This document shows positions 50,656-53,085 of a DNA stretch of 64,000 nt, piece after piece. The notes under the pieces are model-generated. The model did no database searches, was not told where the DNA came from, and saw only the letters and a program-made list of their open reading frames with translations. Location of the stretch: positions 682,001-746,000 of the forward strand of contig NZ_FNRT01000002.1 of NCBI RefSeq assembly GCF_900105585.1, in the 5' to 3' direction. This stretch comes from Nocardioides exalbidus (GTDB taxonomy: Bacteria; Actinomycetota; Actinomycetes; Propionibacteriales; Nocardioidaceae). The position numbers and the translations under genes are program-made. Position 1 is the first letter of the stretch. Each line of letters opens with the position of its first letter.

Positions 50656-51144
50656 TCAGTCGTCGCTGAGCGCGGTGTTGTACGCCGACAGCTGGGCGGA
50701 GAACGTCGCGAGGTCCTCGTCGGACCAGTCCGACAGCCGCGCGTCGAACCGGTCGCTGCGGCGACGGCTCATCGCGTCGAGGCGCGTGCGGCCCTCGTCC
50801 GAGGCGTCGAGCAGGATGGCGCGGCGGTCCTCGGGGTCCGGCATCCGCACGACGAGGCCGAGGTCGACCAGTGCCTGCACCTGCCGGCTGACGCCGCCCT
50901 TGTCCATCCCGAAGGCGTCGGAGAGGTCGGCGCCACGCATCGGCCCCTCCTTCGCCAGGTGGGTGAGGATGAAGAACGTCATCGGGTGCAGGTCGGGGTG
51001 CACCTCACGAGCGCGCTCGCCGATGACCCGCTTGACGCGGCGGATCAGCGTGCCGACCTCGGCCTCGATGGCGCGGAGGTCGTCGTAGCGGGACCTGGTG
51101 GTCGTGCTCCTCGTGGTGCTCACGGCGGTCATTGTGGTGCTCAC
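50656..51144 (-). CDS. MarR family transcriptional regulator
   Basis: The 162-residue protein has the MarR fold: LIRRVKRVIGERAREVHPDLHPMTFFILTHLAKEGPMRGADLSDAFGMDKGGVSRQVQALVDLGLVVRMPDPEDRRAILLDASDEG (about residues 32-118). DPEDRRA is the family wing. It overlaps the MFS efflux gene stop at its GTG start (GTGA); an ATG four codons later is possible. Translational coupling to the pump suggests that it represses that operon, and a dyad at 52781-52797 is a candidate operator. Confidence 0.88.
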   Translation of the reverse strand: MSTTMTAVSTTRSTTTRSRYDDLRAIEAEVGTLIRRVKRVIGERAREVHPDLHPMTFFILTHLAKEGPMRGADLSDAFGMDKGGVSRQVQALVDLGLVVRMPDPEDRRAILLDASDEGRTRLDAMSRRRSDRFDARLSDWSDEDLATFSAQLSAYNTALSDD

Positions 51145-52745
51145 ACCTGAGAAGCGGGTGAGACGGGGCTGACCTCGGCCATGAGCTCGTCGTCGCGCTT
51201 CACCGAGGTGCGCAGCGGCACCTCCTTGATGAAGAGCACGGCGATGAGCGCGCCGATCGCGAACGGCAGGGCGACCAGGAAGATGTGGCCGGTCGCGTCA
51301 CCGAAGGCGCTCTCGAAGATCGCGCGGAGCGGTGCCGGCATCCCGGACACGTCCGGGATCCCGCCCTGGCTGTGGCTGACGGCGTCGGCGTACTCCGGGT
51401 GCGCGGCGAGCAGCTCGGTCAGCCCGGCCTTCACCGAGTCGGCGACCTGGGTAGAGAGCACGGCGCCGAGGGCGGCGATGCCGACCGAGCCACCGAGGGA
51501 GCGGAAGAACGCGACCACCGAGGAGCCGGCGCCCATGTCGGAGAGGGCGATGGTGTTCTGCACGGCGAGGACGAGGTTCTGCATCGTGGCGCCGAGGCCG
51601 AGGCCGAGGACCGCCATGAAGATGCCGGTGTGCCACAGCGGGGTGTCGGCGTCGATCGTGGAGAGCAGGCCGATGCCGAGGATGACCGCGACCATGCCGG
51701 CGACGAGCCAGCGCTTCCAGACACCGGTGGCGGAGATGATGCGACCGCTCGTGATGCTCGAGACGAGGAGACCGCCGACCATGCAGATCGACATCAGGCC
51801 GGCCTCGGTCGGGCTCATGTCCTTGGCGCGCTGGAAGTAGAGGCTCAGGTAGACCGTCGAGCCGAACATCGCGACACCGATCAGCACCGACGCGACAGTG
51901 GCGAGGGTGAGGGTGCGGTCCTTGAAGAGGCGCAGCGGGATGACCGGGTCCTTGGCCACGTTGGCCTCGACGTAGATCGCCGCGCCGATCACCGCGAGGG
52001 CTCCGACGACGAGGAGGGCGCTGGTCGTGGAGACCCAGTCGAAGTTCTGGCCGCCGAGGGAGACCCAGATCAGCAGGATCGAGACGCCGCCGACCAGGAG
52101 GAAGGCGCCGAGGTAGTCGATCGACACGTCGTCGCGCTTGACGACCGGGAGCCGCAGGGTCTTCTGCAGCACCACGAAGGCGAGGGCCGCGACCGGGAGC
52201 CCGGCGAAGAAGCACCAGCGCCAGCCGACGGTGTCCACCAGCACGCCACCGACGAGCGGGCCGCTCACGGTCGCGAGGGCGAAGACGGCGCCGATGTAGC
52301 CGCTGTAGCGGCCACGCTCACGCGGGGAGACCATCGAGGCGATGACGACCTGCACGAGTGCGGTGAGTCCGCCGACGCCGAGGCCCTGCACGACGCGGGC
52401 GCTGATCAGCACCTCCATCGAGGGCGCGAAGCCGGCGACGACGGAGCCGATCGAGAAGATGACCAGCGCCGACTGCACCAGGATCTTCTTGTCGAAGAGG
52501 TCGGCGAACTTGCCCCAGATCGGGGTGGTCGCGGTCATCGCGAGCATCGTGGCGACGACGACCCACGTGTAGCCGGTCTGGCTGCCCTGCAGGTCGTCGA
52601 CGATGGTCGGCAGCGCGTTGCTGACGATCGTGGAGGAGAGCATCGCGACGAACATCGCGAGGAGGAGGCCGCTGAGGGCCTCGAGCACCTCGCGGTGGGT
52701 CATCTGGCCGTTCTGCTCGGCGCTGATGGTGGGAGCCTGGGTCAC
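51141..52745 (-). CDS. EmrB/QacA-type (DHA2) drug-efflux transporter
   Basis: The 534-residue MFS protein has 14 membrane segments, with MTHREVLEALSGLLLAMFVAMLSSTIVSNALPTIVDDLQGSQTGYTWVV at the start, motif A (FADLFDKKILVQ), motif C (TVSGPLVGGVLVDTVGWRWCFF), and a C-terminal hydrophilic tail. DHA2 pumps export lipophilic drugs with proton antiport. GTG 52745 is taken as the start (VTQAPTISAEQNGQ precedes the first conserved MTHRE); the ATG there is another option. Behind it is marR. In front are an operator dyad and a leader-peptide region. Confidence 0.9.
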   Translation of the reverse strand: MTQAPTISAEQNGQMTHREVLEALSGLLLAMFVAMLSSTIVSNALPTIVDDLQGSQTGYTWVVVATMLAMTATTPIWGKFADLFDKKILVQSALVIFSIGSVVAGFAPSMEVLISARVVQGLGVGGLTALVQVVIASMVSPRERGRYSGYIGAVFALATVSGPLVGGVLVDTVGWRWCFFAGLPVAALAFVVLQKTLRLPVVKRDDVSIDYLGAFLLVGGVSILLIWVSLGGQNFDWVSTTSALLVVGALAVIGAAIYVEANVAKDPVIPLRLFKDRTLTLATVASVLIGVAMFGSTVYLSLYFQRAKDMSPTEAGLMSICMVGGLLVSSITSGRIISATGVWKRWLVAGMVAVILGIGLLSTIDADTPLWHTGIFMAVLGLGLGATMQNLVLAVQNTIALSDMGAGSSVVAFFRSLGGSVGIAALGAVLSTQVADSVKAGLTELLAAHPEYADAVSHSQGGIPDVSGMPAPLRAIFESAFGDATGHIFLVALPFAIGALIAVLFIKEVPLRTSVKRDDELMAEVSPVSPASQV

Positions 52746-52780: not shown

Positions 52781-52797
52781 AGTTGTTGACCACAACT
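52781..52797. promoter_or_regulatory. Candidate MarR operator dyad
   Basis: AGTTGT (52781-52786) and ACAACT (52792-52797) are perfect 6-base arms with a 5-base spacer, in an AT-rich patch 36 bases ahead of the pump start. MarR operators have this form. No other strong dyad lies closer. Confidence 0.5.
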
Positions 52798-52872
52798 TTA
52801 CGCCTCCGACAACCATCAGGCCAGCCGACGACGACGAGACCTGGCCCACACCGACGTCGCCCGGACATGCAG

Positions 52873-52940
52873 CGACCCGCAGGCGTGCTGCCCCTTCGAG
52901 AAGGGGCCCCGGTGGATGAAGACCGGGCGCCTGCGGGTCG
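52873..52940 (-). promoter_or_regulatory. Leader hairpin (attenuator-type) ahead of the efflux gene
   Basis: CGACCCGCAGGCG (52873-52885) pairs with CGCCTGCGGGTCG (52928-52940), a perfect 13-bp stem. Within its loop is a second hairpin, CCCCTTC-GA-GAAGGGG (52891-52906). The adjoining segment GGTGGCTGC (52941-52949) can pair with the leader-peptide codons at 52994-53002, giving alternative folds. Confidence 0.5.
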
Positions 52941-52986
52941 GGTGGCTGCAGTGGATTCGCCGGCAGCTGTCGGCGGACCGGGCTGC

Positions 52987-53025
52987 CTAGCGGGCAGCCA
53001 CCTCACTCATCCGAAAAGAACTCAT
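52987..53025 (-). CDS. 12-residue leader peptide upstream of the efflux gene
   Basis: MSSFRMSEVAAR followed by TAG. The ATG is preceded by GGAGGTGATCC at 53031-53041, a 10-11 base match to the 3' end of 16S rRNA, far stronger than most sites in the window. Its last codons overlap an inverted repeat around the stop (GGCTGCC at 52981-52987 and GGCAGCC at 52993-52999) and can also pair with 52941-52949. The size, the strong site and the hairpins fit a ribosome-sensing leader; this is inference. The remainder of the 432-base gap 52746-53177 shows no other gene. Confidence 0.5.
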   Translation of the reverse strand: MSSFRMSEVAAR

Positions 53026-53030
53026 TCCTC

Positions 53031-53041
53031 GGATCACCTCC
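53031..53041 (-). promoter_or_regulatory. Very strong ribosome-binding site of the leader peptide
   Basis: On the minus strand GGAGGTGATCC is complementary to the 16S rRNA tail over about ten bases. It lies 5 bases upstream of the leader ATG, closer than usual, and a second GAGGA directly touches the ATG. Confidence 0.6.
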
Positions 53042-53056
53042 CTTCTGTGTGCCTCG

Positions 53057-53085
53057 AGCGTACGTCGGCAGGCACGGGGGCTCAA
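53057..53085 (-). promoter_or_regulatory. Putative promoter of the leader/efflux transcript
   Basis: TTGAGC (53085-53080) and TACGCT (53062-53057) on the minus strand are spaced by 17 bases, as for a sigma-70 type promoter. Transcription would begin near 53050, leaving a short leader with the ribosome-binding site. Confidence 0.4.

Follow-up and report, generated by a model that had tools for sequence, protein, structure and literature searches.

The Locus

The window analysed here is the whole stretch of 64,000 nucleotides from Nocardioides exalbidus. Its minus strand contains a DHA2/MFS efflux pump gene, a MarR-family regulator gene 3' of it, and, upstream of the pump, a sequence belonging to the Rfam family RF02471 (Ms_IGR-5) (Table 1). 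The cmscan match scores 98.6 bits (E = 6.6e-21), where the gathering cut-off is 45 bits, and extends over model positions 1–184, the full length of the model. The genome has one copy. Rfam describes the family as "Actinobacteria sRNA", without known function.

The transcript has been detected in M. smegmatis (PMC10454040) and is supported by RNA-seq in S. lividans (PMC8079986), and in S. avermitilis the ends of its transcription unit, classed as an sRNA, have been mapped (PMC8780764). Ribosome profiling in M. abscessus and M. smegmatis found footprints on the MS_IGR-5 RNA as a whole, and its authors noted that clear evidence of translation was missing for such RNAs (PMC4974804). A literature search gave no paper in which Ms_IGR-5 is assigned a function, a start codon for its ORF or a pairing with 16S rRNA. 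Structured RNPs can also give Ribo-seq footprints.

The first-pass annotation of positions 52,781–53,085 proposed a leader peptide with alternative hairpins for the DHA2 pump. All of the sequence features it listed are real. Its reading is retained insofar as the mini-ORF is selected as a translated frame, and abandoned as regards the pump. The promoter-like pair in front of the ORF is present as TTGAGC-17-TACGCT. Among 177 distinct, non-redundant copies of Ms_IGR-5, which are the comparative set used below, TA...T is kept at the homologous place of the -10 in 141, against a background of 1.6%. Generic promoter and terminator scanners reported nothing for the locus, which is expected since these are GC-rich actinobacterial sites.

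Table 1. Features of the Ms_IGR-5 locus and its neighbours in the window.
Feature	Position	Strand	Evidence
Promoter -35, TTGAGC	53080..53085	-	Sequence; T/G-rich -35 position conserved in relatives; 17-nt spacer
Promoter -10, TACGCT	53057..53062	-	TA...T at homologous place in relatives
sRNA gene, Rfam RF02471 Ms_IGR-5	52867..53050	-	Full-length cmscan match; single copy in genome
Helix P1, 5' strand CAC	53047..53049	-	Covariation
16-nt complement of the 16S 3' tail (extended Shine-Dalgarno), AGAAGGGAGGTGATCC	53031..53046	-	Pairing kept in relatives; own 16S tail
Mini-ORF, 12 codons + TAG, MSSFRMSEVAAR	52987..53025	-	Frame conservation in 177 sequences
Pseudoknot, ORF side GGATGA, codons 5–6	53007..53012	-	Complementary to 52914–52919; register-specific covariation; compensatory changes
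Helix P1, 3' strand GTG, codons 7–8	53004..53006	-	Pairs with 53047–53049; covariation
Helix P2, 5' strand GGTGGCTGC, codons 8–11	52994..53002	-	Covariation
Helix P3, 5' strand around stop codon	52982..52992	-	MFE fold; covariation model
Helix P3, 3' strand	52958..52967	-	MFE fold; covariation model
Helix P2, 3' strand GCAGCCACC	52941..52949	-	Covariation
Helix P4, terminator-like, 5' strand	52928..52940	-	Compensatory changes in 10/10 modelled pairs
Pseudoknot, P4 apical-loop side TCATCC	52914..52919	-	Covariation; compensatory changes
Helix P4, 3' strand	52873..52885	-	Covariation model; MFE fold
Palindrome AGTTGTGGTCAACAACT before pump, probable MarR operator, outside sRNA	52781..52797	-	Similar palindromes in relatives
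DHA2/MFS efflux pump (neighbour, outside sRNA)	51141..52745	-	Pfam MFS_1 8.8e-47
MarR-family regulator 3' of pump (neighbour)	50656..51144	-	Pfam MarR_2 1.1e-13

Distribution and Gene Context

Ms_IGR-5 is present once per genome in 98 of the 121 genomes of the family; one fragmented genome shows two overlapping matches. With a 72-position sequence model of the 5' part, the RNA is found in 193/297 genomes of the class and 106/296 of the phylum. Several complete genomes do not have it, so some lineages can do without the RNA, and it is not essential across the group. In one genus of the same family (g2), it is missing from the complete genomes G214, G331, G342, G350, and G363 and present in others, a pattern in which repeated loss is open to comparison. 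No copies were found in phages or plasmids. Four pattern matches on viral contigs lack the structure and are chance matches.

Two phyla, Actinomycetota and Spirochaetota, were surveyed. A pattern scan of the whole collection returned at least 120 stretches; among the matches listed, 119 are from Actinomycetota and one is from a Spirochaetia MAG (contig L287, VFLI01000053.1), in which metH and ahcY lie beside the element. Two different models recover intact relatives in 11 of 296 Spirochaetota genomes, one copy each. By inspection, the 16S complement and the in-frame start and stop are seen in 11/11, and a TTGACA-like -35 as well as a T-rich stretch following P4 in most of them. None of them reaches the Rfam gathering cut-off, and several score 27–40 bits. 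The spirochaete copies (L287, L360–L370) are from genomes with a GC content of 28–65%. The 3' half of their P4 contains a conserved GCAGTCGCT-like motif, a possible second partner of the ORF segment GGTGGCTG.

The neighbouring genes vary. In 55 of 105 named loci, the RNA is followed by a gene on the opposite strand. Next genes on the same strand belong to many unrelated clusters, the pump being found in only four. The pump is downstream in 12 of 22 same-genus loci examined and in few others. It is on the other side of the RNA in L086, L095, and L048 and absent in further family loci. Palindromes of the type GTTG-N5to7-CAAC between the RNA and the pump are also seen in relatives, and AGTTGTGGTCAACAACT is probably a MarR operator and likely the true control of the pump.

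A cis-acting leader by which the DHA2 pump senses ribosomes would agree with the position of the pump, usually 240–420 nt downstream of the RNA in the family relatives that have it there, as well as with the reality of the ORF and hairpins. However, a downstream pump is lacking in most relatives, a convergent gene is found in half, a MarR-type palindrome of its own precedes the pump, and spirochaete relatives mostly end with a T-rich terminator. The compatibility of P2 and P4, described below, leaves no antiterminator. Judged from sequence comparison, it is very unlikely that Ms_IGR-5 is the leader of the pump. Some read-through link between the two is possible in Nocardioides, where the pump often follows. 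In family loci such as L034, L035, and L066–L069, the RNA often has ABC exporter genes and the pump and/or a MarR gene as neighbours, and drug-export genes are clustered locally around the RNA in that family.

Ms_IGR-5 occurs once per genome with a promoter of its own, and the genes downstream of it across the phylum are unrelated or convergent, which indicates a stand-alone gene for a structured small RNA. The conserved promoter, the terminator-like P4 and the lack of a common downstream gene are, as sequence features, those of a separate transcription unit.

Complementarity to the 16S rRNA 3' Tail

The ribosome-binding site was originally reported to have about ten bases complementary to 16S rRNA, and it is stronger still. 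All 16 nucleotides of AGAAGGGAGGTGATCC can pair with the tail of the 16S rRNA of the same genome, GGATCACCTCCTTTCT, by 15 Watson-Crick pairs and one G-U pair. The predicted duplex has -30.1 kcal/mol, compared with -12 kcal/mol for a normal Shine-Dalgarno (SD) sequence. In a pattern search allowing up to two mismatches, the 16-mer is seen in this genome only at this site and, in antisense orientation, at the two 16S genes. The 16 contiguous pairs are retained in 169/177 copies. Among the 370 departures from perfect complementarity in the 177 copies, 360 are A>G or C>T, that is, they preserve pairing as G-U. Position 12 of the complement (53,034) is G in 165/177 copies, which gives G-U with the 16S, while A would pair perfectly. 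It is A in the window; elsewhere it is a consistent single wobble within an otherwise maximal duplex.

Extended SD sites of Staphylococcus aureus (PMC13009471) are similar in that the SD-anti-SD helix is extended towards the start codon, the spacing is long and weak starts are frequent. Weak start codons (TTG, GTG, CTG, and ATC) also occur among the Ms_IGR-5 copies. Unlike the S. aureus sites, the complement in Ms_IGR-5 extends over 16 nt of the 16S tail and belongs to a free-standing structured RNA that contains only a mini-ORF.

Such pairing could sequester small subunits or block the anti-SD tail, and lower SD-dependent relative to leaderless translation. The coverage of the whole 16S tail, the energy of the duplex and its retention among the copies are consistent with a sponge for 30S subunits, as are the published ribosome footprints (PMC4974804). 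For a pure sponge, however, a start codon that tracks the frame and a conserved in-frame stop codon, described in the next section, would be superfluous, and we regard it as rather unlikely.

A Conserved Mini-ORF Frame

The 12-codon reading frame of the first-pass annotation, MSSFRMSEVAAR*, is found at 53,025–52,987 of the minus strand. The hexamer GAGGTG inside it is invariant in 177/177 copies. All three phases occur in the distance from the SD core to GAGGTG (103, 37, and 37 copies). The start codon is in the frame of GAG in 162/177 copies, whereas 17.9 are expected from spacer shuffles with a maximum of 29; the copies share ancestry and shuffle tests therefore overstate independence, but this effect and that of P1 below are too large to hinge on that. 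The remaining 15 copies have, by inspection, mostly CTG, ATC or ATT at the start position. In the relatives, the in-frame start lies 7–13 nt behind GGAGG and opens a frame of 12–15 codons. The fifth triplet after GAG is a stop codon in 174/177 copies (TAG in 151, TGA in 17, and TAA in 6). Two degenerate copies depart from this, the stop codon being lost in L072 (TGG) and moved by one codon in L065.

The leader frame is thus conserved across the copies at both its start and its stop, as expected of a translated mini-ORF. The comparison in relatives suggested by the first-pass annotation gives a different result for the peptide, whose sequence is scarcely constrained. The pN/pS of the mini-ORF over the 177 copies is 0.84 overall and 1.09 for the last codons, after GAGGTG, and this indicates that the peptide is hardly selected. 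A synonymous-bias coding signature is absent from the 177 copies, in which the frame alone is kept, and the pN/pS range of 0.84–1.09 gives no sign of a conserved arrest peptide among them. Based on these comparisons, the mini-ORF is selected as a translated frame with start and stop, and its amino acids are barely constrained.

The conservation of frame, start and stop, and the invariant E-V at the C-terminus of the peptide, could also point to a micropeptide gene whose product of 12–15 aa acts in trans. Against this are the pN/pS values and the variable length of the ORF, from 12 to 17 codons across relatives, and the conserved residues coincide with nucleotides required by P1, the pseudoknot and P2. 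A micropeptide is most improbable.

Helices and a Pseudoknot

The minimum-energy fold of the RNA has -98.2 kcal/mol (z = -4.9 against shuffled sequence). The exact complementarity of 52,941–52,949 to codons of the leader (52,994–53,002), as originally described, corresponds to a 9-bp long-range helix, P2. The inverted repeat around the stop codon (P3) is part of the minimum-energy fold, and the perfect 13-bp stem with nested hairpins is seen as P4. P1, between CAC(G) on the 5' side and (C)GTG, was tested on coordinates that were not fitted to the structure, and its pairs are kept in 174/177 and 175/177 copies against about 119 in shuffles.

In an alignment of 100 sequences, 90.6% of the cells of the modelled helices are paired, against 73.8% after shuffling, a percentage biased in favour of the structure since the alignment was fitted to it. 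Double-change cells number 415 against 100 in shuffled alignments, and the covariation score is 0.455, against 0.153 after shuffling and at most 0.087 for slid partners. P1–P4, among them the stems for which covariation in relatives had been suggested as a check, covary strongly.

The pseudoknot joins codons 5–6 (GGAC) with the apical loop of P4 (GUCC). At this fixed register, 37/61 copies have a match between the nucleotide that follows GGAC and the one that precedes GUCC, with 22.9 expected and 0/2000 shuffles. Of the five other pairings tested, four give no signal; a weak excess is seen for the fifth, the pair that flanks the core on the opposite side. The core itself changes on both sides: GGAU/AUCC in the window, and GGAA/UUCC, CGAC/GUCG, AGAC/GUCU, and UGAC/GUCA elsewhere. 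A free-window search with the 26 non-GGAC sequences alone gives a weak signal (42/1000). In L070, a degenerate copy, the P4 region is shortened and the pseudoknot partner is not evident.

It was previously suggested that the two structures could exclude each other. P2 and P4 instead abut at 52,941/52,940 and are both present in the minimum-energy fold. Since they are adjacent and compatible, there is no terminator/antiterminator switch. No mutually exclusive terminator/antiterminator helices or helices sequestering a ribosome-binding site were found, and the pump start at 52,745 is far outside the fold. The sole competing pair of helices in the predicted structures is a short start-codon hairpin and the pseudoknot, both of which use GGAU(GA) of the ORF. 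From codon 5 onward, nearly every nucleotide of the ORF also takes part in P1, the pseudoknot, P2 or P3.

The RNA in the window corresponds to RF02471 over the full length of the model and shares its isolated gene arrangement. The printed Rfam consensus leaves the 3' strand of P2 unpaired, has neither P1 nor the pseudoknot, and draws a GGUCC:GGAC hairpin. The entry does not mention the ORF or the 16S pairing, and its cut-off misses the spirochaete members. The core of the GGUCC:GGAC hairpin is nearly always formable, but its covariation is not beyond shuffles. In copies with a changed ORF side, the 5' side of this hairpin is mostly unchanged, and the accompanying change is in the P4 loop. A looser search for complements gives some signal for the hairpin and the pseudoknot alike, and the hairpin is possibly an alternative state.

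Possible Function

Leaders with uORFs of the erm and WhiB7 type are ribosome-mediated attenuators. Ms_IGR-5 resembles them in the strong SD and in the short ORF whose nucleotides double as strands of helices. It differs in that no downstream gene is conserved, the helices are compatible rather than alternative, and there is no conserved arrest peptide. Ms1/6S and 6C are likewise widespread structured actinobacterial RNAs, and one of them acts on RNA polymerase (Ms1: PMC4191392). Ms_IGR-5 has no sequence relation to them, and in contrast carries ribosome complementarity and a translated frame.

Ms_IGR-5 is annotated as an sRNA in several transcriptomes, and its unpaired GAATCC together with the 3' strand of P2 is a possible target-binding region. 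It might be considered as an ordinary base-pairing sRNA, with an incidental ORF and a 16S complement that serves only for ribosome loading or stability. The frame statistics are far above chance, however, and make this highly doubtful.

We consider it rather probable, from the sequence comparisons, that Ms_IGR-5 is a free-standing sRNA whose working part is the encounter with the ribosome, and that translation itself matters while the peptide does not. In the proposed mechanism, a 30S subunit would be recruited through the extended SD helix to the ORF, which lies within the pseudoknotted fold. Initiation and a short run of translation would melt P1, the pseudoknot, P2 and P3, and the terminating ribosome would be placed at the stop codon inside P3. 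The 3' stem P4 would serve as the terminator, and the peptide would be a by-product. The RNA would have two states, ribosome-engaged and folded, the ratio of which is the signal, and the state could be set by ribosome availability or by effects of drugs or stress on initiation and elongation. Candidate outputs are the exposed 3' strands, the stability of the RNA, or 30S subunits withheld.

More tentatively, Ms_IGR-5 may be a trans-acting RNA shared across phyla, which queries or captures small subunits via the whole 16S 3' tail and is unfolded at its pseudoknot by translation of a mini-ORF whose peptide is irrelevant. If this is true, it would be a dedicated ribosome sensor or a regulator of global initiation.

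Implications

The family itself was already known. The 16S pairing, the conserved frame of the mini-ORF, P1, the pairing of P2, the pseudoknot and the spirochaete members, as indicated by the comparisons above, go beyond its Rfam entry. Ms_IGR-5 is among the most widely conserved small RNAs of actinobacteria, seen in Streptomyces, Mycobacterium, Frankia, and Nocardioides. With the signatures of the frame, the 16S pairing and the pseudoknot, an Rfam entry that was an orphan gives rise to a specific and testable idea, an RNA with the ribosome as its input. The copies in spirochaetes indicate a family of greater age or mobility than its name implies. Leaderless mRNAs are common in actinobacteria, and in organisms rich in them the balance of translation between mRNA classes could be shifted by an RNA directed at the 16S tail.
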